From the NCBI RefSeq assembly GCF_921293095.1, contig NC_060252.1, positions 5,952,001 to 6,016,000 of the forward strand: DNA of 64,000 nucleotides. Reading direction: 5' to 3'. Origin of the DNA: Ischnura elegans (Eukaryota > Arthropoda > Insecta > Odonata > Coenagrionidae). The position numbers and the translations under genes are program-made. The stretch's first letter is position 1. The number at the start of each line of letters is the position of its first letter. Positions 8,429 to 54,099 of the stretch are shown piece after piece. Under the pieces are notes generated by a model. That model did not search any database, was not told the origin of the DNA, and saw only the letters and a program-made list of their open reading frames with translations.

Positions 8429-8571
8429 ATGCATTCCATTTTAACAAGAGGGAATGCGATACTGGCGTACACGTTGACTGTGTTAGCCGGGCTGACATTT
8501 TGCTGCTTTATATCAACTGTATTTATCGACTATCGGACGAAAACAACTATGGATACCGTTAAAGTACTTGT
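8429..8571 (+). CDS. SPCS3: SPCS3 coding exon 1
   Basis: Encodes residues 1-47 and two bases of codon 48, covering the N-terminus and membrane anchor through TVKVL. The donor is CTTGT|GTACGT. The exon ends two bases into a Val codon, which the first base of exon 2 completes. The 129-bp intron 1 ends TATTTTTCAG. Confidence 0.95.
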
Positions 8572-11500
8572 GTACGTTATTGAATTATTTGAAATGCCTC
8601 TTAGAGAATCATTACTTACTTAAGATACTGTGTAACAGATGCCAATTTTGTGCTACGGTCTAATGTTTTGTTTCATCTTATTTAATTTTATATTTTTCAG
8701 GAAGAATGTTCCAGATTACAGTGCATCCAGAGAGAAAAACGACTTGGGATACTTAACGTTCGATTTACGAACAGATATCCTTTCTAAAATTTTGTGGATA
8801 TACTTTACAATTGAAACTGTTCTTTGCCACGTTCAAGTTTTAGAAGGTGTTGGGCATAGTGATGGATGCTTATGCTTTCTTTGTTGAAATACTTGTATTA
8901 CCTTAATTCAAAGCCTGCCGTGATAGCTTGATTTGCAGTAAGTGGAATCGTTCAGCGTATGATATGAAATTATAGTAGATTTAATCTTCATCTGGCCCTG
9001 CGACCTGCAATCATAGCAATACGATAACAGTAATGGATATACAATTACATAGGAACGGAAGTAGTAAATATTTTATACATTTTTTACAGATTAGTTATAA
9101 TATTGTTCATCCTCACAGTAATACATTTCTCTTGTTAAAATTGCACATATCGTACCTGAATCGTGTAAAAATTAGATTTCAGAGAGCTTGGTATTTTGGG
9201 GCCTTGATAAAGCGCTTCGATCCTAAATTATTGTTAATTGTGACCAATCTGATAAACTGTTATCTACCACATGTCATTTTTTTCATGCTACTGTTTGATC
9301 GGAGCAGAAAAAGATTATTTTTACTAAAAAAATAACACACTGAATGCTCTAGGACTGAAACATCAAAATAAGCTTTGACTGACGTTTTTGTTACAAGAGA
9401 GCCTTATCAGCTCCCAGTGGAAACCTGATAAAATAAATTCTGTCCTCCATAAGGGGGTGGAAATAGTTGACTAAGAGCTAATGCTTTCCCGGCAAATATA
9501 GTTGAAGAAGGCTATTTGGACTTCTATGGAGTTATCTCACTCCATAGAGGGCTATAAAATCCAAATAGCCTTGTTTGATTGGTATATTTCATCATTTTTA
9601 GTGTTGTAATAGTTGTGGTTGGTTTTCCGGAAGCTCTGTGAAGCCCATAAAAAATAGTAATTAATCTTGAATAGCCTGAGCAAGTAAATTTTGTCTTATT
9701 TGAATCAAATGAAGTTACATGAATTTCTTGATAAATCAACTCTACCATTAGGGGTAAATACATTGTTTAAACGTGTCTTAACATCTGCTGGGGTATTCCT
9801 TGCAGTGTGGACGTGCATATTAAATACCAAACAATTCCATTATCTATTTACACTATGAGCATTGTGTGTGTTCTTACTGCACTTGAAAATTCTGAAAATT
9901 ATACCTTCATGCTTTATCGCATAATTAAGGAAGGAATTATTTATTGCTACCAACAGTTACGCCATGTCATCTCCTTTTCCCTTTAAATGCTTGATTAGCT
10001 GAGATGGGCCCTGGATTTAAGCTTTCCTTTGTACCTGGTCCTGTGTGGGCATGAGAAAATTGAAGGGCTGGAATAATGGCTGGCATGTAAGGGCGAGTAT
10101 TGAGCATTTAAATCTAGTGGGTTACATTTAAACTTGCTATTCTAGTTCAAAAAGCATTTAATCTCCAGTTATCTTGTGATTGAACTGCTGATTGGATAGC
10201 TCTTGAAATTATAATGCATATGTTATTGCATCTAACCCCTCTATCCAATAAATTGTCTCGTTCACTGTTTTTGCTGTCACTTTAAATGTTGAAACTGTGT
10301 GAATCACTGAAGAAACTAAATCTGTTCACTGCTGTAGCATTCATACTAAAAATAGGCCTGGGTCAGAACTGATAGCCGAGGGAAAATTATTTTCTTAGCA
10401 AGTTCGTCTATCTCCTTCCCATTGAAGACGATGTCCAACTGAGGATGTGAAGGAGACTACCAAAGGATAGGTATTTTCACTGTTGTGAGCTAGTTCCTAG
10501 TCAAGCCAGAGGTGCTCTACACTTTTTTCTCCACTATAGTTAATTTCTCATGGACTGAACCCATTCATTTTCTAGATATATCACTTTTCATCTAGCATTA
10601 GACTCCCAACAGTCTCCTCTTGGGGCTTTTCCACTAATGTTTCCTTCCATAACATTTCCCTCGTGCCTGATGTATTCCTCTTATGAGATCACTACATGGT
10701 GGCATCTAAAATTTGGTGGCTGTCTTCTTCTCATCTTTTCACTGGGGTCAAATTAGGGCTCTAAACCTTCTTCCTTTCTTAACAAAGGCCCTCTGTGTCG
10801 GAGGGAGTGTGCCCTCTGGGCAGGGAGGCTGCCGCTTGGATTAGGCACTGGCCATGGGCCACTCACTCCACTGAGGGTTATTCTGGAGTTGATTGGGGGG
10901 TAGGCAGTGAATTACCGTTCATGGAAGGGGAGCACACGACTTTGAATTTTGAGAGAATATGGGAAGGGGTGGTGGTAGAAACTATTCCAGTTCCTACAGA
11001 GCCCCCTCTTCCCATTCTTCCTGCAGCAAGGAAACTAAGTCTACTAAGCTGGCTTGATAATTCAACATCCTAATCTCCATGGCTATGACATGAGATCCCA
11101 AAGCCCTCCAGTTGCATTTTAATGATACCTAGGTGGCTTAGTTAGGTTTTGGCCCTTGAGGTGTGGTAACAGATATTACGAAGCACTACTATAGCACTGC
11201 ATGAAGTATTGGTTTTTAAGTAAGCTACTGGTTATCCAGCAATATGATCGGTGTTGTGGATTATTATTTGATTTGCATGTATTTCACTACATCTAGATTG
11301 TCGCGTTTTAATGCAAGGATATACAAGGCTTATTGTTTTCATTAGAATGGGGAACTTGCATGAATTTTTTTTATTTCATAGGCGGACAGAAAATTATTTT
11401 CTGAATACAACAAAGAAAACCTCATGTAAATCTGAGTTTTCCTTCGCGAGATATTTAATGATAAATATAACGAATTTTAAAGCGCGGGAAAAACTCCCTC

Positions 11501-14500
11501 ACCCCCCAAGCCACTGCCGACGAAGCCTCGATGACGTCAAAGGTGCCTAAACATCACGCGAAGCTATTGTTGTGATTGTTTGTAATAGTTGCCAGCAGTT
11601 GTGAGAGCTTCGTTTGTTAGACGTGTTGATTATTTTATATTTAAAGATAAATATCCGACGATAGAGGCTTAGAAGCCCTCGCATTTTGCATTATTTATAA
11701 TATTAATATCTGAGTAAGGGCATAAAATATAAAACTGGAGCAGTTAAACCAAAAATTTGATAATACCTAAATAACATCGTTGTAGGAGTCTGAGCCACGG
11801 CCATTGGAAGGGGGATACGTTAATTGTAAGTTTATGTTATCGACGGCATATGATTCATTTAAGTATGTAATTAGAACGATTTTGATGTTTACTAATGTCC
11901 GCTTAGCTTTTATACACAATAAATTCATCCGTTTATTCGTAGGTACCGGAGAATTCGTCGTTTAGGACTGTCTGTGCTTGTATTATAGGGTGAATTCCAG
12001 TCAATGCAACTTTTGCTCGCTGATTGGAGACATCTTGGAACATTTTTGTGCCAAAATAGTGTTATTTTCAACGTGACATCTCCCGTTAAGCTACTGCTAA
12101 TAATCACAGTGCCAGTGGTTGTAATGCACAAAGTTTGACAAGGTTGAAAAATATCGGCCAAGAGTTATCAGTGTTCCATCGTGATTGAATTGTAAAAAGT
12201 GCTATTACGCTATCGATAAATGTCTAACAGTAGTGTAAAAATTGTCAGTGGCGTGCTAATCTCCGTTGTTCACCGTAGATATGACATTTCACGATCACGC
12301 TATTGAAATAAAAACTGGGTGTGAAGTTTGTTATTCCATTATTTCAACGAATAGTAGTGAGAAATGTCACTTGTGTGGGCTAATTTAAGGGTTTAAATCA
12401 GTGAATAAATAGTTGTATTCATCATAACGAGTTCTGTTATTGTAAGTTGTACCTACGTGATGAATATAAGAATGTGATAGTGACATCCAGTTTTTGATAA
12501 GAGTATTTGCCTATTTCCCACTATATTTTAATGGTATATGCTAGTATATTGTTTATGGATTTACCTATATCATTGAAATAGGTTGTAGCTTGTGTGTGTG
12601 TTGGCAGCGGAACCGATTCGTGATCTCACATGTGGATTGTGTGCAGACTGTTTTGCTGTGAATTCGTACCGTAGGACGGATAGGACTACCTTCTCCGTTA
12701 ATCCGGCGTTGCCAAATTCAACAGCACAGCTTACTCTAATGTCAACAGCACAGCTTACGATCGTTATCCTCCAGTATTACAAGTTTCTTTTACAACTCGA
12801 TTTGCCGCCGACGTATAGCAATAATTTGTCTCAACAAATTCCATGAGGGTCGTGGCATCAATTTTTGGTGTCCTAAAAAAAGGCTGGTGTCCTAACACCC
12901 CATGCCACACGCCTTTTAGGCGGCTTGCGGGGTATTATGTAGACGTAGATGAATTTCAGGTGTACTATTGAGTGGCAACGTTATCATCCATTTTTCTGAT
13001 AACCAAAACACACGAAGTGAAACGCTTGTACTTCATCATCCCGATGCCGCATTATTAATATCCCAAGTAATAATCTAGGCACAACAGCAATAGGAAAACT
13101 TGCCCAAGAATAACAGAACAAAATAAAGTGACGATGAGCGGCTAAATACTCCCTCAAAACAAATTTTACACCATGCGCTCAGCGTATTTCCCTACTCCCT
13201 ACGGTTGTTTAGGCACCTATGACGTCACGCCTGGCCTCGGCAACGCTCGGGTGTCTTCGCGCAGTGGTCGGCTCAGAGAAATTTTTCTCGATTTTAAATG
13301 CAATTTTTTTATTTCCTTTGATGTTGAATGGAGAAACTGAAGGTATTTTTGCGAGCTAATGTATCCATTTGACTTATTCAAAATAGTTTTTAGAGCAATC
13401 TACGACCCATGCAAGTTCCTCATTCCCCTCGTAAAATTAATTACATACCTACTTTCTTTGCTTGTCTACAAGGAATGTTTCTAGTCTAGTCAAGGAATGT
13501 CTGCTCAAATATTGCTAAAGGGGATGAGTGGTAGAAAAAAACTGGATTAATTTTGTAAGATTTCTTCAATGAATAAACAATTTTAAATTAAGAAAATGAT
13601 GTCTACGATCTGTAGATGAATTTTCCATAATGCAAATGCTCAATTATTGCCGCGGCCATGCATACAGCTGAAGGGAACTGGAGATTTTGTTGCTCTCAGC
13701 CATGGTTACGGTTGAATGGGAGAGGAACTAAGTATTGAATGTGAAGGCAGGCTCTGGGTGGAAGTGGAAGCAGCGATGAAGGGAGTAACGATGAGTCTTA
13801 GGCAGGTGCTCGCATGTGAAGGCAGTTTGCTGGGGGATTTGGAGCTGTGGAAATATAAGTACAATGACATTTTCACCAATAAAAAGATCCTCTGTCCGTT
13901 AGTTACAGCTATCAATGGGTCTTTGAAGCTATCTTAAATAGTAGACTATGTGCATTAATAATTATAAATTGTTTCATTGGAATTATGAACAGAAATATAA
14001 GTTAAAGTTTGGATTATTCATGGTCTCTCTCCCCATCATTAGCCTGTGTAATCAGGAGTTTAAATACTTAATGAGGTAGCTGGGATAATCCACTTCAAAT
14101 TCCAGAAGAGTAAGTCTGTAGCTCATAGAAAGGTGGGTTTATTGGAGCAGGTGAAGAGGGCCTGTTTCACGTGACTTATACAGCTTTAAAAACCGGCAGC
14201 TGGTTTCTGGGTGGTTAGCAGATTATTTAAATTTCTCAAAGGAAAGGATTTAGGTGATTTAGGTACATTTAAGATTTACTGTTTCACTGGATGTTTTTTT
14301 TTTTGGCAATTTGACAATTAGGATGTGAGCCACTTTTTAAATATTGTTTAGCTTGAGATGTTCTGATAGTTGATTATTTTTTAGTTGTTGCTATTCCAGA
14401 GCTTAGGATTATGAGTGTTAGAGTTGACAAAAAGTGTTGGGGAGTAAAGATTGTTTCATGTTTTTTCATGTGGTTTTATTTCCCATTCCTTGGTCAGAAT

Positions 14501-17500
14501 CAGAGCCATCTCTACCATTTCTTCAGAGTCCCCTTCCACTGGCTTTTCATTCCCTTGCTCTCAACTTTTTTTTGGAAACCCATTCTTTTTTTACTTATCT
14601 AGTTCCATACTTGGGCTTTCTGAATTTTTTAAAGTACTTTCCTTAGCTGTCTTACATCTATCTCATCTTTTCAACTGGAATGTGAAGCAACTATTTTTAT
14701 ATTTAACCGCTGAGTACTCAACTGCCAACAATAAATTAAATCAGGTAATTCAAGCATATTAATCACTGCTATGTTGCTGGTGGTTATTGATGAGGAGTTC
14801 ACTAAGTTTGTTATTCTCGATGCAATTTCAGGTTGTTCTGTGGGACAAGATCATACAGAGAGGAGAGAATGCTGTTCTTGATTTCAAGAATATCAATACC
14901 AAGTATTATTTTTGGGATGACGGAAACGGATTGAGGTGAGATTAATCACTTTATACGATGAACTCAGCTTCATTTTTTATTCTTTTTTCTTCCCACAATA
15001 ATGCATTCATTTTGAAATGAAATATTTCTGAAACAAGGGTCTTAAAAGCTGACAACATATTCTAGGCATATTCAACGAGACCAGTGCAAAGTTTAACCCT
15101 TTGAGTGCGGATGGCATAGCGTTGATGCCCAGCGTAGGTCCTGCCAACGGGCGGGTGGCATCACATTGATGCCACACCACTCTATGTCCTTCAATCGCTC
15201 CCTACGCTCCTCCACTCTGTTCTTTCTACTCTCATGATGGTTTCCCGCACACGCAGTGGATTAGGCTACCTGGATATGACTTCCGTTTTTGAAAAAAGTT
15301 TATATTTTTTTAATACTTTTTTTTACATTTATGGAGTACTTTTTAATTTGTAAGATTTTTCGCCATTACAAAAAAATTTAAATGTGATATTTTCTTTACT
15401 CTTCTGAATATTTGTACTAAATATTGCCACATTTGAATATTATTATTCTCGTTTTAGTCCTTTTAAAGTTTTTGTAAACGATATTTAGTCATAATCTTCC
15501 TTCCACCTCATCGACGAAAAATATTTTCGTATTTCAAAATACGGTCACTATACACACGCTAAACACAGTTGAATAATCTACTGCTGTTTTTATTAATGTT
15601 TAAACTTAATATTTACATAATGCCGTTATAACTCATAACATCTTCCATAGTATATTTGCAACTCATTTCCTGAACGATCCTTTCAATAGAGGTGTGGTTA
15701 TATTGTTTACGGAAAAAGAAATAGATTTTTTCGACTTTTTCTCATTTATTTCGTTTGAGTTTGTTAAAGTTACTAGGTGGGAATAATTACGACCACCAAT
15801 TCGTTAATCACGGGAAATAATGAAGGTTCTAGGAAAACTTTTATATTTTTTTCATTCTGAATGAGAAATTAGAATTGGGGAAATCCTTGGGTAAATAATC
15901 GAATTTCGGGGCTCAAATAAAAGAGTCGTTTTATGTCACCGCGGAACAGACTACAAATCGCTCTGTGTCGCCTGTTATCTCTATTTTTAGAAGTATTTTT
16001 GCCATTCTTATTATTAATGCATCAAAGTATTCTGTTTTGTGCATGTCGTGGAGAAGGTCAGCTCTTCCTTCTCAGTTTTTGTGACTCTCGCCATTAGTGC
16101 AGTCTTTCCTTCGGACTTCTTTCGATTGCGTGCATTTTCACTCCTCTATAGAGATTTTATTTTTTCTAATATTACCGTACGGCCTTTTTCTATTAGATAT
16201 TTCAGTATTTTACATACATTTAGCCACTTACGTGGAATATGGGAGAAACCTTTATTTTTAATTTTATTCCTATTTTCAAACCCCAAGGACCGTATAGGTA
16301 TGTATCAGCTTTTGGTGAACTAGGCTTAGAATATCTCCTCGCAATAAAACTACTTCTGGTACAATTTACTCAAGTGTGTACATGAAACACTGCATTGGGT
16401 CTTCTACGCCAAGGTTTTTTTTAACTTTGAAGCAATTTGCGTATTTTACTTCGACCAAATAGAGCTATTATAATCAGAAAAGAAAGTCTCCAAGACTGTT
16501 ATGTTAAGACATGTATTTAGTCCATTTCTTAACATTTTTATGGTAAAGAAATTTCTATGCGCAAAGAAAAAATTATTTTTGGATTATTATACATTTCCAT
16601 TTTATCTGGAACATACACGTTTAGATATTTCTTGTACGTCGGTTCTAAATGCTAACGCTTACATCTCTTTCGGAAACCCATAACCCCCCCTCCCGTGACT
16701 ACCCTACTGAGTTTATACATGGAAATTATAATAATCTGTTCAAATATCTATTGAGTTACTCAAAAGAGACGCTCACACCACTGAAACTCTAAGGACAAAC
16801 ATAAGAAATAACTCTCCTCCTCACGTCCTAAGAACGACTAAGAAGTGGCGAATAAGTATACCTCTGATGGTGTATGATGTGCAGAAGTTCAAGGACTGTG
16901 TTTGAACACTTTTTTCAAAGAATTTCACAATTATTAGTTAATTTTTGCAGATTCAACGCAAAAGAAAATGTCAAAAAGCTAAAAATAATTTTCATATGTT
17001 TGCATGCAAATCTAAGTTACTTGTAAATTTAAAAATTTAGAAATGTGAAAATTAAAATTCGAAAACTTTATTTACCCAAAACTTGATGCATGGATAGTGG
17101 ATGACATCTGAAAAAATATTAGTCTTATTTTATAATTCAATTCCGCCATCATTTCAGAAATTATTTCAAACTTCTTAGTTGCTACATAAAAATATGTTGC
17201 CCGTCGTTCCGAATTTTTGTGTAACGGGTTGCATAAATATCCGGAGCATTTATCATATGGGTGCGGATGGCATCACTGTGATGCCATAAACAAATTGTTT
17301 AATAAATGAATGCAATGGCAAATGAATATAAAAATCCTTTTTTTATTGTAATTGTTTTCATATTTTCGAAAAATAAAGTGAATGCAGTGAAAAAAAATTC
17401 TCCGCCTATGTGAAACAACTCTGAGAAAATGTTACGCAATGAAAGGGTTAACCTCATTTTCACTTATTTTCTCATTTTTGGACATGCCCACTGCATGGTT

Positions 17501-20500
17501 AATTAGTTACAGTTCTTCTGAGCTCTTCAATTTAAGCTTCATTCATGGCAGACAGGGTGGAAGTGTTGAGAGTGAAACACCCTCTGCAAAATATTTCCTT
17601 TTTAAGTTATTGAATATGGTTTATATGTATCACCCATTTGTATGGCTTCTTATCCCAGTCAGCACAAAAGATATTTTACCCCATTACTACCCTAATTTTA
17701 CACGGGTAGAATGGAGGTAAAAGATGGGTAACCTGCGTGTTAACGGGTAAAATATCTGTAAATTTAAGTGGTAAAATTTGGGTAATTTCATGGTAAAACA
17801 CTGGTAAAATTCATACTTTTTCCGGGTAAAACTTCCCAATGCGACATCAGAACCATCTGTGGAGCTTTAAAATAAACGTGATGACACTCACTCTATCGGT
17901 GCTGTTGTGAACTAACAGTACATAGCTTTAATGCGCTATAGGCGTTCATATGCACAATAAATGAACGAAATCGACATAGATATTAAAGAATGACTGTTTA
18001 TTGAACGACGAAAAGTTACTAAATATACAAATACGACATTTATATTAGGATATAACCACTTGGTGAAAGAGAAATAATAACAAAAATAAAATCCACATTC
18101 ATGAGGACGTACGTGCTCGAAGAAAGAGAAATGACCAAAATAAATAACAGTTATGTTTCAAGAGTAATTGCAGATTTGATTTCTTTTAAAACATAAATAA
18201 TTTTCTTCCGTTGGAACTTCTTGGAACTAATTTTCTTCCGTTGAGCACTTGGTGACAACAGCTTCCACACCGAACTCTTGAGAGCATGATTACGAGGAAA
18301 CAAATTCGCCCAAGTGAGAATCCTAAAAACTGCTTTTCCAAAGTTTTTCACCTGAAATTTTCAATGAAATCACTGTAAATAAAGAGCGCTATACTTAAGC
18401 AGAGGTTGAGGGAACCAAATTTCAGTTACATTGGTTATTAAAAGGTATATTGTCTCACCATGACGTCACAACAAAAAGTGATGCAACTCTGTGATTAAAT
18501 TTTCCGCTGCATTATATTTTACTATTTTCAGCATTGTATCCGGTAACTTAGTTTAGTTACTTCATGATCCAGTAATAGCTATAAATTATAATTGCCAGGC
18601 ATGTTACTTCTTACAGTTGCGTTCATGTTCTTCCTTCATTGTTTATTTGTCCACTCGTAGCCAACATTACGGTCCACTAGTCGCAAATCGCAGTTGAGGA
18701 TCCTAAATAGCCAACCGTCAAGATGTGAATTCGATCTTTCATACAATTATTTTAACAAAAATAATTATCTTTATAATGAAAATTAGTACTCTTCTCTATT
18801 TATTTACGAAAATAATCAGGTAATTTTTAAGTACTTGAATTTTTGTTAATGACCATAGCCTTTCATTGATAGCATGTATATAATGTGGAACTATTTGCGA
18901 AATGAAATCAAAATTAATTTGAAAAATATGACTACCTTTTCGCTGTGGATATATTGAACTTTACTTTTCTACTTTAAACTTTTCTCAAACTCATACAATT
19001 AAATAAATATGCCTCACTTTTTATTTTTTATGCTTCACTGTTGGCAATTCTGCATGCGAGTAATTAGGTACATGGTGAAGAAAGTGTAAAGGTTGCCAGG
19101 GTAAATTTGCCCCAAATTACCTAAATAATTTCCGTCTAAATTATCTTTTGTGCTGACTGGGGTAATAGTGTCTACCAATGCTGATCAATCATTGAGTGAC
19201 CAAGCTCAGTCAGTTTCCAATGCAATCAGTAGATAGTCACAGGATAACTTTTTAACTATCAACCCTAACAAAAGCAAATTGATGCACTTTAAAACTAGTG
19301 GCCCACCATCTGAGAACATTAAGTGTAAGTCTGAATAGGAAACCTTTTGAGCAGGTGGAATTCCTAGGAATATCTCTGGATTACAGAATGTCCTGGAATG
19401 AGCATATTGCATACAACAGCAGCAAACTCAGTTCTACATGTTACTTACTAAGGCAGCTCAGTTCCACTGTGGAAAGAAAAAGTATTACAGTGACTTCTAC
19501 TCTCATGTCACCTACAGTGTAATTTTTTGAGGATCAACTCATCATTTTATCAAAATATTTCATTTACAAAAACGTGGCATGAGAATCATTGCACATAAAG
19601 GTTACAAATCTCCCAGCAGACCAATCTTTAATGACATTCTTATCCTTATGATTCTGTGTGTATATATATTGTTAACTATTAAATCCCTTAATTGCCTCAC
19701 ACTCTTTCCCCTCCCCCATTTGGACCCTACCTCCCCACTATTTCCCCCTCCCTCAGCTATCTTTCATCCTTAACCTACAGTCTCCTACCTAACTCTGAGG
19801 AAGGTGGATGTATACCACCGAAAATGTATTACTTTGAGTGTTTTTCATCTTTGAGTCTTTTCATCTCATTCTTTTTAAAATATTTATGCTTTGAATAATA
19901 ATGTGCACAGTCATTATACAAATACTTGTGAGTGATGATGCTTTTGCAGTGACGCCCCAAGCAGTGTGGTGGATAAAGCTGCCATTTGTGGAAGAATTTT
20001 GCTTTCAATGGGCTAGTCTACTCGGATACAAAATGAAAGTTCAGTGAACGAATTCTAAGTTTGGAAGGGAAAAGTAAAATGTGATAAAATATTTTGCTCA
20101 TCCCACCATGCTCCCATAAGTTTAAAATAAAGCAAAAACACTACAGTTGCTGCTCATTTTTTATGATTTGGTGGCGTACTTAAAGAGTCTTGGTGCATTA
20201 ACTGTTCAAGGAGAACCTTTCATTGCAAGGGAAAAGAGTGTAAATAATATTGAATTACTTGAGGCCCATAAACAAGACTGAGGAGTAGAAAAAATTATGG
20301 TGGCACGAAAGACACGAGTTCATGGCTAAATCAACGTAGGTATTTGCAAAAGGGTCAAGGCCACTGCTTTTTCTCTGTGAACACGTCAAGAATTATGCGA
20401 TGGATTGAAAAATGGGAAAGTACATATATGTGTGTTTATTTTTCGCACTCTGACTGTCAATAGTGAAAGTAAGTCTGTGAACGAGCGCATTAAGGAGTAT

Positions 20501-22295
20501 GTGAGATGCATGCACTTACTGCATGGCCACCTCTTAGGCTGTCCTAGACGGAGTGGTTCATCACAGGAATTCGCTCATTTATGCGCTCTTGAAAGAGTAA
20601 ATGCTATACCTGGAGTGAAATGCATAAATGTAAAAAGACTCATTCAGAATGGAAGTCAGTGCTCCCCCTATAATAAAACACATAATTTGTCATGACTCCA
20701 TGTATTTATTGTACTATTGGGGTGGCTGCCAGAGTTTGCTGTTGGATAGGTTAGGGTATTGCTCACCCCAGACTAAGCTATGGGTTTGTGATAGCACACA
20801 TTCAGGATCAGGTTGGCCAGTTCCTTTCCCTATGCCATCTCTCTCTTCTCTTTGAAGATTTTTGTTTGGGGGTGTCTAAAAACTATGTCTGGGATGTGAA
20901 CCCAAGACCCCCCTATAATCAGTAGCGAGTGAGGCCACCTTCTTGGCTACCACACTCTCTCTTATATATACACTACACTCACGATTATCCTAATGGCTAA
21001 CGATGGGGAGAGACGGCACGAATAATCGGAAAACACAGATAACCCAAACTTTTACTTTTATGTCTTGCAATGTTCATAATTTACCTAAAACAAACAATAT
21101 ATTATTATTTATGCAGATATTCTGTTAATTTAGAGAGCTTCCTGGACTCAATGAGAGCTTTCTTCCCCAGCTTTGCGATCTTTTTAGCGGAGCGCAGTCG
21201 CACACTGCGAGGCTTGGAAAAGAGGAACACGGTGCTCCCGTGAATGCAGCTATTGGGCGATCGCTTCCGTTTTACGCAGGGGATTCTAATGGGAATAATA
21301 AGCCCGGTGTATCGTAGCATTAATGCAGTAATTCCGATGATTTTGCATCCGATTTTATTTTTTTATAAAGATCGTGGAAAAAATTGAGCGAGAGTAAAAG
21401 TCATGCACGGATAATCCGCAACCCGGACAAACCACAGCCGGATAATTGGAAGTCTGCTGTGTGTATATATGTCGTATCAATGGCTGGAATTCAACACTTT
21501 CCCAAACCATTTGCTTTGACAGTTTTCCAGGCTATTTGATGATGTGTATTTTACTAAGTACTTATTCATATTTATAGGAGATTCAAATTTCATTTTGTGC
21601 AGGGAAGTATTTACCTTAATTTAAGATATACTGCAGTATAAAGGTGAAATTTTTCAATGTATTGTGGACACCACCTGTGTAAGATTTTTGGCAATGTTGA
21701 AATATCAAACATGTCACTTAAAGATGTGGGGTGGTTGGACATTTTTACATTCCTGTGCCCATATTCCTGTTACACCTGCACATACAGTACACCGAAAATA
21801 AATAAGGTGATCTTTACAAGATTTTATCAGGAATATGTAATCACTGTAAGGCTGGACTCGTAAATGCATCAGGTCATGCTGGTGTGGCTGTCTCTGTGGA
21901 TGTGGGCATTCAGGGCTTTCCTGGGCATGCCTGGGTTTTATGCATATGCATGTATCCGTGGCTGCAGTTGGTAGCATCAGCAAGCATAAAAGCCAGCCTG
22001 GGGTTGGACTTCAAGTGTAATTTGATTGAGTATAAAATACTAGAAAAGCATATTAGAGTGGGAAAAGATTTTTTAATAAATTGATTGTCTACCCTCGTGA
22101 GATTCAAGTGCTTGTTCAAAATGTATCAATACTTATTGCGTTGCGTTTGTTGTGCTATTTTGCAGGGGTCATCCCAACATCACGCTGACACTCTCGTGGA
22201 ACATGATCCCAAATGCAGGATTGTTGCCCAACATCTTTGCCATCGGGAAGCACTCCTTCCCCTTCCCGTCAGAGTACACAACGTCACGTGTCTAA
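8429..22295 (+). CDS. SPCS3: Signal peptidase complex subunit 3 (SPC22/23), five exons
   Basis: The coding exons are 8429-8571, 8701-8774, 14656-14744, 14832-14935 and 22166-22295. They join in frame to 540 nt, a 179-residue protein; the family is usually about 180. It is the non-catalytic, single-pass type II ER membrane subunit of signal peptidase, which helps cleave signal peptides in the ER lumen. A short cytosolic N-terminus ([10 protein letters not shown]) precedes one membrane segment at about residues 11-33. The lumenal domain carries [47 protein letters not shown] and FPFPSEY, all hallmarks of the family. N141-I-T is an N-glycosylation sequon at the position used in the family. The start at 8429 is the only Met matching the family N-terminus. 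Introns 1, 3 and 4 are GT-AG; intron 2 is AT-AC. No damage is seen, so the gene looks functional. Confidence 0.96.
8701..8774 (+). CDS. SPCS3: SPCS3 coding exon 2
   Basis: Encodes [20 protein letters not shown] followed by DLRT, after the TTTTTCAG acceptor. It ends one base into an Asp codon at ACAG|ATATCCTTT, a U12-type AT-AC donor. Reading on through the apparent ORF loses the conserved FNWN block, which supports this exon end. Confidence 0.94.
9508..9572. repeat. 65-bp hairpin
   Basis: AAGGCTATTTGGA at 9508-9520 is repeated inverted as TCCAAATAGCCTT at 9560-9572, and the centre adds CTATGGAGT with ACTCCATAG. It would fold into an interrupted stem-loop. It lies inside SPCS3 intron 2 and may be a tiny MITE. 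Confidence 0.75.
10600..10998. repeat. Unclassified dispersed repeat family B, copy 2
   Basis: It matches 4480-4850 along its length in the same orientation, with shared blocks such as GGAGTGTGCCCTCTGGGCAG and CTTTGAATTTTGAGAGAATA. It lies in SPCS3 intron 2. Confidence 0.75.
11345..13425. mobile_element. 2.1-kb non-autonomous element with long imperfect TIRs
   Basis: The outer ends read GAATGGGGAACTTGCATG and, inverted, GAATGAGGAACTTGCATG. Deeper in, the left arm (TGACGTCAAAGGTGCCTAAA at ~11532) pairs with the right arm (inverted, TGACGTCATAGGTGCCTAAA at ~13224). The arms are therefore about 200 bp long but diverged. No transposase ORF is visible. Long TIRs suggest a Mutator-like or fold-back type, but no target duplication was found, so the superfamily is open. 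A family C repeat tail lies inside it. Confidence 0.6.
12826..12955 (+). repeat. Dispersed repeat family C, copy 1 (retroelement 3' end-like)
   Basis: The core CCATGCCACACGCCTTTTAG followed by GCGGCTTGCGGGGTATTATG ends in a TAGACGTAGATGAA tail. The same core appears inverted at 28110, 37388 and 54100. A conserved core followed by a (TAGATG)-like simple tail suggests a non-LTR retroelement 3' end or a SINE. Confidence 0.65.
14656..14744 (+). CDS. SPCS3: SPCS3 coding exon 3
   Basis: Starts after the AC of the U12-type intron and encodes the rest of Asp73, then [20 protein letters not shown] followed by STANNKLNQ. It ends in phase 0 at AATCAG|GTAATT. Confidence 0.95.
14832..14935 (+). CDS. SPCS3: SPCS3 coding exon 4
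   Basis: Follows an 87-bp GT-AG intron ending AATTTCAG. Encodes [20 protein letters not shown], then [14 protein letters not shown] and two bases of an Arg codon. The donor is TTGAG|GTGAG. Confidence 0.96.
15097..17447. mobile_element. piggyBac-like relic, 2.35 kb (TTAA flanks)
   Basis: TTAA lies at both ends (15093-15096 and 17448-17451), with CCCTTTGAGTGCGGATGGCA on the left and, inverted, CCCTTTCATTGCG on the right. Subterminal GTGCGGATGGCATCA-type repeats recur near both ends (15106-15170 and 17260-17287). Internal ORFs are short and match no transposase that I can recognise. The element sits in SPCS3 intron 4. Confidence 0.55.
17654..19161. mobile_element. 1.5-kb TIR element, superfamily unknown
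   Basis: CCCAGTCAGCACAAAAGATA at 17654 is repeated inverted at 19141-19161 (ATCTTTTGTGCTGACTGGG). Just inside the left end there is a cluster of GGGTAAAA-type motifs. No transposase is visible and no target duplication could be fixed. It lies in SPCS3 intron 4, directly before a LINE fragment. Confidence 0.65.
19163..19870 (+). mobile_element. Non-LTR retrotransposon RT fragment (LINE)
   Basis: Broken frames give [20 protein letters not shown], then [10 protein letters not shown], then [17 protein letters not shown] with [13 protein letters not shown], then [19 protein letters not shown]. These match, in order, the C-terminal half of a LINE RT (NP.KT..m.F, FLGi.lD..l.W..Hi, and the QkRaiRii block). 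Several stops and frameshifts are present. A C-rich stretch and CTGAGGAAGGTGGATGTATA with an ACCACCGAAAATG block form a 3' UTR-like tail. Located in SPCS3 intron 4. Confidence 0.75.
19871..20883. other. SPCS3 intron 4, nothing recognised
   Basis: No conserved peptide. The 96-residue ORF near 20405 does not resemble a known family. Confidence 0.5.
20884..20958 (-). repeat. tRNA-like SINE head
   Basis: On the - strand GGTAGCCAAGAAGG looks like box A, and GGGTTCACATCCC looks like box B and the T-arm, correctly ordered. It is a degraded tRNA-derived sequence in SPCS3 intron 4, unlike family A. It is unlikely to be a working tRNA gene. Confidence 0.5.
20973..21460. mobile_element. pogo/Tigger-like MITE
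   Basis: The left end has CTACACTCACGATTATCC and, 40 bp in, GAATAATCGGAAAACACAGA. The right end has GGATAATCCGCAACCCGGAC and CCGGATAATTGGAAGTCTGC. Repeated subterminal GGATAATC(C)G motifs facing inward are characteristic of Tigger/pogo elements. The - strand ORF at 21105-21320 is not a recognisable transposase. Confidence 0.5.
22166..22295 (+). CDS. SPCS3: SPCS3 coding exon 5
   Basis: Follows a 7230-bp GT-AG intron ending TATTTTGCAG. Encodes the glycosylation sequon (PNIT), [26 protein letters not shown] and the stop TAA at 22293. The C-terminus TTSRV is the expected end of the protein. Confidence 0.95.
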
Positions 22296-38106: not shown

Positions 38107-38289
38107 ATAATGTAAAGGAACTTCTTCTTGCCCTAGGGTGGGCACACAAAAAAACTTAGAAATTGACAGAAAAACGAAAAATAAAATAAAAGTGAGGAAC
38201 TTACGGGGAAAGGTTGTTTTTACAAATTTTCGATGGGACGCAGCCCATCTTTCTCAAGTGAGAAGAGGAGTATATATATATATATTTAG

Positions 38290-38590
38290 AAATAATATGG
38301 AAGATAGGTTGATGGTGGAAAAAAGACATTCTGAACCTGTCTGTTCTACAGTCTATTCCTCTTATTCTATTTATATGATCTGATCTTCCGTTGTATGTTG
38401 GCGTCCTTAAGATATGGCTAACTTCGTTAGAAAAGACACCTCTCTTGGATTTATCTAAAAGGTTTAGTATATTTTTCAATCTACGGTCTGACAGAGAGTC
38501 CCATCCGAGTTTATCTAAGAGGTCAGTTACACTAACAAGACTATCGTAACGGCCTTTCACACACCTGGCAGCTCCTCTTTGCACGTTGAC
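38290..38590 (-). mobile_element. LINE reverse transcriptase C-terminal fragment
   Basis: The - strand gives QRGAARCVKGRYDSLVSVTD, LLDKLGWDSLSDRRLKNIL and IDCRTDRFRMSFFHH in one open frame. This matches the C-terminal end of CR1/Jockey-like RTs (QrrAARfv..dY....SVt.ml..LgW..L..RR, and then t.ryr.SFFPrt). The frame is open, but the 5' side stops at a TGTGG-rich minisatellite (38585-38655) and the catalytic domain is missing. It is a fragment, not a gene. Confidence 0.8.
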
Positions 38591-38986
38591 CTGTGGTCTG
38601 TGTGGTGGTCTGTATTTTGACCTGTGGACAGGGAATGTTTTGACCTGTGGTGGTGTTTAGAAAGGCTGTCTGGAAACAGTAAATGGGTGCTTTCGGGGGT
38701 AGATAGCGCTTACAGCGCTGCCAAAATGATAGCTGCGGAACTACCCTGAGTGAGCACAGCGGCACAGTACCGTGTGAGCACACGACTCATTTCTCGGAGC
38801 GGTCTATTCGAACGTTATTTGCCAGAGCACTCTTCGCTGATTGGTGGGAGTTCAAACAGTAGTCCCAGGCGACCACTGGTATGTTCCTACATGATTGAAA
38901 AGGCCCTACGTACCCAGATTTCTCCCCATTTCCATTTTTCCGTGGTGAGCAATAACTCAGAGCGCTGACTCCCACTGAATGCGACC

Positions 38987-52730: not shown

Positions 52731-54099
52731 AATCCAAAAGTTGTGTCGTATTGTTCTAGAATAACTATACACCAAAATACGTTAAATTTTATTTATTTAT
52801 GTTTATTAGACGTATAATATCCTTTGAAAAGTGATAAAAATCGCGAAATTCCAAATCTACGTTTCTTTTTCAAAAAATCTCTGTTTGTTACCCTGGTGTG
52901 CTAACAAAACATACATATTGTTCTATTCGCGAAAACACAACGGTAATGTATATATTTTACACATTTCACATATTCCCTTTAATCATTTTATGGGCTATTC
53001 CCAGCTACTGTGTTTAAATCCTTTCCTAGAACTCCGCAGTGTCCAGACCCTGCCCGCGGTTCACCCAGACCAGGTTCAATAAATAGCCCTTATCACTGTC
53101 CCTTGCCGTCTTTTGTCTACAGCGTTAACTGGTTCCTTAGTGCGATAGCTTAAGGGACACGTGCTAGGAGTATTGGTCATAAATTGCCTTTTCCTAAAAT
53201 TGTTTCCTCGCTATTGGTTGAAGATATTCCACTATGTCGTGTATAATGAACAATCTAAATAAAATGAAAAAAAATGAAGGCCAACGAATCCAAATATTCC
53301 TTTGGACTCTCGGTACTTCATTCGTACGATACATTACATTTTTTTATTTCCTGTTGCAAATTTCTTACCGATTGAAAATTAAAAAATGGAAAGTGAGGAA
53401 AGCATGAACATTTTCCTCAACACATGTGATAAAACTGTGTAAAAAAGTGTTTTTATGAAAACTCCAACCTTACCCTCGCTAAAATCTTTCAACTTATTCA
53501 TAGACGAAATCGAGTGATAGAAGTACACAGATTATGGTAAATAGAAAAAAATATTTTACAAAACGCATTCCATAGCAGGATGGGACTTATAGTTGACCAC
53601 CCGAAGCCAGGTTATGGAACGACAAATGACGGTAACACCGCAAAGCGTTTTTGGCAGTCCTGAGTTATCCGCAGAAATATCAGGTGAATAGGAATAAGGG
53701 GTAATAAATTGAATAGAATATCCTAAAGTGTGAAAAGGGCCTACGTTCAGGAATTTTTTAAACCACACATTTGATGAATTCCCCTCATCAAAAATTTTCT
53801 TTTGGTATAACTAAAAAAATGCATACTTCAACTGAAAATTTCAAGCTAGTTCTTTCTGTTGATTATACTAATGATTGATTTTATAAATACGCTTCAAAAC
53901 CTTTTGAATATTGCAAACTAATCACGTTTTCTTAAAATTTTTATTTGAGGCATTGATAAGCCCGCCCGCTCCGTTTTACGGTTCAGGCTATCCAGGATAT
54001 CAATTTTCAATGCCGTATAAACATTGAAATTTACTACACTTCGCTCTAGGTGAATTTCAAGCTGACGAAGAGGTGATAACCTCAGAGCACGTGTGGTTA
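52731..54099. other. Non-coding DNA, nothing recognised
   Basis: AT-rich. A - strand ORF at 53918-54112 may be a retroelement remnant attached to the family C tail, but similarity is not convincing. Confidence 0.4.

Follow-up and report, generated by a model that had tools for sequence, protein, structure and literature searches.

A putative U12-type AT-AC intron in the signal peptidase gene SPCS3 of the damselfly Ischnura elegans

Minor-spliceosome introns have been described before in genes of the signal peptidase complex. In RNPC3 patients, human SPCS3 is reported among the genes whose U12-type splicing is defective, with raised retention and alternative transcripts, and the third intron of human SPCS2 is reported as U12-type (PMC3958305). 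An AT-AC U12 intron is also recorded for Trichinella SPC25 (SPCS2), which lies in the same complex as SPCS3 but is a different subunit (PMC2846911). Among insects, the U12 state has been found in 31 of 161 human U12 introns with detectable orthologues in Apis and, after manual checking, in 16 of 198 in Drosophila; the 19 U12 introns tabulated for Drosophila melanogaster do not include a signal peptidase gene (PMC2831892). A further survey presents the Diptera as a classic case of extreme U12 intron loss, describes strong reduction in Diptera, Collembola and Acari, and infers pronounced losses in the ancestors of Diptera and of Pancrustacea (PMC10639083).

The present locus concerns the second intron of SPCS3 in an odonate, an order for which no paper on U12 introns was among the literature matches listed. 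A text-term search found a single paper that links SPCS3 with U12-type or minor introns, and no literature linking U12 with Spase22-23, which we take to be CG5677, or with AT3G05230. The paper on the fly U6atac mutant, searched by term, contains neither CG5677 nor Spase in its main text (PMC2952598).

Structure of SPCS3 and the signals of its second intron

The window, by which we mean the whole 64-kb stretch of DNA analysed, is chromosome 7 of Ischnura elegans, 5,952,001-6,016,000. It holds, on the + strand, the gene for signal peptidase complex subunit 3 (SPCS3), with five coding exons and a 179-residue product. The features discussed below are, in window positions:

8429..8571, + strand: SPCS3 exon 1, coding part (ATG through a split Val codon), with GTACGT as donor
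8572..8700, + strand: intron 1, GT-AG, 129 bp
8701..8774, + strand: exon 2, ending ...FDLRT plus the first base of an Asp codon (phase 1)
8775..14655, + strand: intron 2, predicted U12-type AT-AC, 5,881 bp
8775..8783, + strand: putative U12-type 5' splice site ATATCCTTT, 9/9 against RTATCCTTT
11346..13424, + strand: high-copy repeat inside intron 2, 2,079 bp; at least 39 other copies, 97-99% identity
14639..14647, + strand: putative U12-type branch site TTCCTTAGC, 8/9 against TTCCTTRAY
14654..14655, + strand: predicted 3' splice site AC of intron 2
14656..14744, + strand: exon 3
14745..14831, + strand: intron 3, GT-AG, 87 bp
14832..14935, + strand: exon 4
14936..22165, + strand: intron 4, GT-AG, 7,230 bp
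22166..22295, + strand: exon 5, through the stop codon

Read with the AT-AC junction, the product matches PF04573 (SPC22) over positions 1-173 of 173 (E 3.9e-64), and exons 1-4, queried without the split Val, align with PDB chains that carry the name signal peptidase complex subunit 3, which we take to be human (E 1.3e-48). A search of the genome with the joined coding sequence returned the five exons, each at 100%, and no other match, the pieces flanking intron 2 sharing only a 2-base register ambiguity; this spliced-cDNA search thus revealed no retrocopy of the spliced mRNA. A family search of the genome listed a single SPCS3 locus, and a scan confirmed no stray SPCS3 relatives in viral contigs.

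Intron 2 opens with ATATCCTTTC and closes with TTCCTTAGCTGTCTTAC, so that its donor reads ACAG/ATATCCTTT and its acceptor TTCCTTAGCTGTCTTAC/AT, with the last intron base at 14655. U12 branch sites follow the consensus TTCCTTRAY and lie about 10-30 nt from the intron 3' end. In the candidate site TTCCTTAGC the single departure is a G at position 8, where the consensus has A, and the candidate branch adenosine, A14645, stands 10 nt upstream of the last base of the intron. The preliminary description of this locus had placed the donor and acceptor exactly here, with a branch-like site 10 nt upstream of the AC, and its positions are confirmed.

The strength of these signals was gauged against 100,000 random sequences with the dinucleotide make-up of intron 2, allowing three donor registers. 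A donor matching RTATCCTTT at eight or more of nine positions and a branch site of 8/9 or better arose jointly in 2 of the 100,000, with the terminal AC not yet demanded, and a 9/9 donor by itself arose in 3. The word ATATCCTTT occurs twice in the window against 1.04 occurrences expected, and its weight therefore rests on its position at an exon edge. The second occurrence, at 52817 and followed by TTCCTTAGT at 53133, was rejected as an intron, since by eye neither a gene context nor a suitable AC end was seen.

The repeat within intron 2, whose copy number is a lower bound drawn from 40 scored candidates of 3,767, has imperfect inverted ends, AATGGGGAACTTGCATG and CATGCAAGTTCCTCATT, and no listed open reading frame over about 90 aa; when the window copy and two further copies were inspected by eye, none showed an evident target-site duplication. 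It resembles a non-autonomous element that inserted recently into the U12 intron, which without it would measure about 3.8 kb. Elsewhere in the window, open reading frame fragments at 38201-38656 (-) and 19283-19522 (+) resemble by eye the coding sequence of non-LTR retrotransposons, and the two pieces of them that were tried gave no Pfam match.

Minor-spliceosome genes and other candidate introns in the genome

Genes for U11, U12, U4atac and U6atac are all present in the genome, with Rfam scores above the gathering thresholds (93.1, 118.8, 82.4 and 98.8 bits, respectively); their absence had been named beforehand as an outcome that would speak against a U12-type intron. Copy numbers, which are lower bounds from 40-49 candidates scored per family, are at least one each for U11, U12 and U4atac and at least three for U6atac (98.8, 63.2 and 46.3 bits). 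The two weaker U6atac-like matches, C10:65485019-65485124 and C10:46961229-46961361 (63.2 and 46.3 bits), are changed in conserved parts and are probably variants or pseudogenes. Protein components are less clear-cut. A CHHC zinc-finger exon at C5:68150358, reading CPYDGGHVMPKSSLPSHVESC, resembles, in our judgement, U11-48K; CHHC fingers occur in further proteins as well, and a pair of CHHC matches on C8 may be a GTSF1-like gene. CENATAC, a factor for AT-AN introns, gave no match to its profile (PF14968) in the genome search, a null that does not show absence.

The snRNAs of this genome fit the intron. U11 starts at its 5' end with AAAAAGGG, U6atac contains GAAAGGAGAGA and U12 contains GAGTAAGGAAAA; the SPCS3 donor ATATCCTTT is complementary to the U11 5' end and to the AAAGGA of U6atac. 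Predicted duplex energies, with the GT donors of SPCS3, the PHB2 sites and a consensus branch site as references, are -7.8 kcal/mol with U11 and -9.4 with U6atac for the intron 2 donor, against -0.6 to -5.3 and -0.4 to -2.8 kcal/mol for the three GT donors of the gene; for the PHB2 donor the values are -8.2 and -7.1. With U12, the SPCS3 branch site is predicted to pair at -9.4 with A14645 bulged, where the consensus site reaches -9.8 and that of PHB2 -5.7.

PHB2 itself, a gene with an AT-AC U12 intron in both fly and human (PMC2831892, Table 2), provides a second candidate in Ischnura. Its AT-AC intron (C4:77642504-77652143, 9,640 bp) carries a U12 donor and a branch-like site, and the junction reads ATG/ATATCCTTTT ... 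ACCTTAACTAGTTTTAC/TTG between ...EAARM and LGEAM..., the exon ...EAEAARM being followed by ATATCCTTTTCA and the exon LGEAMSKNPG standing directly after ACCTTAACTAGTTTTAC. The two introns are thus alike in their AT-AC ends, U12 donor, branch-like site and length of several kilobases, and they differ in phase (0 in PHB2, 1 in SPCS3) and in branch site, ACCTTAAC in PHB2 against TTCCTTAGC in SPCS3, that of PHB2 pairing less well with U12.

For Ischnura SPCS2 (C11:102176526-102176918), two exons were located; the introns adjoining them read GT-AG by eye, and the word RTATCYTH occurs in neither SPCS2 locus (about 3.2 kb), with profile positions 11-106 of 159 covered. It is possible that SPCS2 lost or converted its U12 intron while SPCS3 kept its own. 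Sodium channels, which in human (the SCN genes) contain a minor intron, were searched as a control: the 14 matches, at 12 loci, had no U12-like donor at their printed ends. Some of these loci hold donor-like words away from the match ends; of those inspected further, the words in L020, L024 and L026 have no coding context, and an exact ATATCCTTT in L025 lies within an inverted repeat, also without coding context. The control is negative or uninformative.

Junction, class and proposed mechanism of intron 2

Which junction is used was addressed by enumerating every join of a donor in 8705-8889 with an acceptor in 14440-14734 and scoring the products by alignment to human SPCS3. Among the 17,190 joins that were in frame and free of stops, AT-AC at 8775/14655 reached the top score of 425, tied with two joins whose register is moved by 1-2 nt and from which protein alignment alone does not separate it; these yield an identical mRNA and have the ends TA-CA and AT-AT, which are not usual splice-site pairs. 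The GT-AG, GC-AG and AT-AG alternatives were ruled out by lower protein scores. A true GT-AG junction, which would imply an insect-specific variant of the protein carrying an insertion, can be written in 38 in-frame, stop-free ways within the range tested, for example 8847/14646 (a 27-residue insert) or 8794/14602 (a 24-residue insert). The best of them scores 391 (rank 1,640, with a 24-residue insert), so that every such join is at least 34 points worse than AT-AC, the donor at 8847 (GTGTTG) is weak by eye, and the conserved core of the protein would be broken up or cut at the junction; we regard this possibility as extremely improbable. The preliminary description had claimed that AT-AC splicing gives an unbroken match to the family and that no GT-AG choice does. 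The full-length PF04573 match and the top-tied rank bear out the first point, and the second holds for an unbroken match, although GT-AG joins that stay in frame do exist.

A splice from the same donor to the AG at 14646 would add three residues in frame and scores 405, which is 20 points below AT-AC. It would run into the branch site and leave it no room, and AT-AG combinations are reported to be disfavoured and poorly spliced (PMC3584512); there is next to no chance that this is the junction. The same AG, which falls inside the U12 branch site, also ends the nested GT-AG pair 8847/14646, whose phase agrees with that of intron 2. This arrangement resembles the prospero twintron of Drosophila (PMC3564746), an AT-AC U12 intron, as we propose for SPCS3 intron 2, with a nested in-frame GT-AG pair of 29 residues where a hypothetical pair of 27 can be written in SPCS3. 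The SPCS3 pair is one of the 38 in-frame GT-AG joins in the range tested. A U12/U2 twintron that inserts 27 residues is very improbable, if slightly less so than the two preceding readings. If it were true, the two spliceosomes would be mutually exclusive at the shared bases, and the choice of SPCS3 isoform would report minor-spliceosome activity. The remaining rival accepts the AT-AC ends and assigns them to the major (U2) spliceosome, as for intron 21 of human SCN4A, and it draws on the fact that AT-AC ends alone do not determine the spliceosome (PMC2831892). In sodium channel genes, however, every U2-type intron with AT-AC ends has G at +5 (PMC2831892), whereas SPCS3 intron 2 has C there; moreover, its entire donor is the U12 word and its branch site fits U12, which leaves removal by the U2 machinery only a very small probability.

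We therefore consider it nearly certain, on sequence grounds, that intron 2 is U12-type of the AT-AC subtype, because it combines a 9/9 donor, an 8/9 branch site, an AC end, a top-tied join and a full PF04573 match in a genome that contains the snRNA genes. The main sequence-level predictions for such an intron are borne out, and the interpretation in the preliminary description is supported at that level. Splicing at these sites, with the branch point at A14645, would then proceed in the order of snRNA events generally known for minor splicing. U11 would pair with the donor ATATCCTTT, and pairing of U12 to the branch site TTCCTTAGC would leave A14645 bulged; U11 would be exchanged for U6atac at the donor; a lariat would form at A14645; and cleavage after the AC at 14655 would allow the phase-1 exon ends to be joined and the conserved core to be read through. 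With an intron of this type, SPCS3 would depend on the minor spliceosome for its expression.

Evolutionary setting

The reported human U12-type intron (PMC3958305) lies in the same gene as the damselfly intron, given the full-length PF04573 match, and the two may be orthologous in position. Since a U12-type intron has been reported for human SPCS3 as well, intron 2 most likely represents an ancestral U12 intron that the damselfly has retained, and the simplest and most likely history is that it was lost or converted towards flies. The preliminary description had based its interest on U12 intron loss among insects, on retention in this gene and on length. The Apis and Drosophila counts and the extreme state of the Diptera uphold the premise of loss; the surprise was overstated, human SPCS3 having already been reported among genes with U12-type defects (PMC3958305). 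A length of 5.9 kb is not remarkable beside the 7,230 bp of intron 4 and the 9,640 bp of the PHB2 intron.

The evolutionary interest of the intron looks modest, that of an old feature kept and not of a novelty. The locus contributes a well-supported record from a damselfly to what is known of U12 intron history, in a gene that is also reported as U12-containing in human and is missing from the fly list, and with it an odonate is shown to possess all four minor snRNA genes, along with two or more AT-AC introns bearing U12 signals. This makes it plausible that SPCS3 is a housekeeping gene dependent on the minor spliceosome in insects, in line with what has been suggested for human pituitary disease (PMC3958305).
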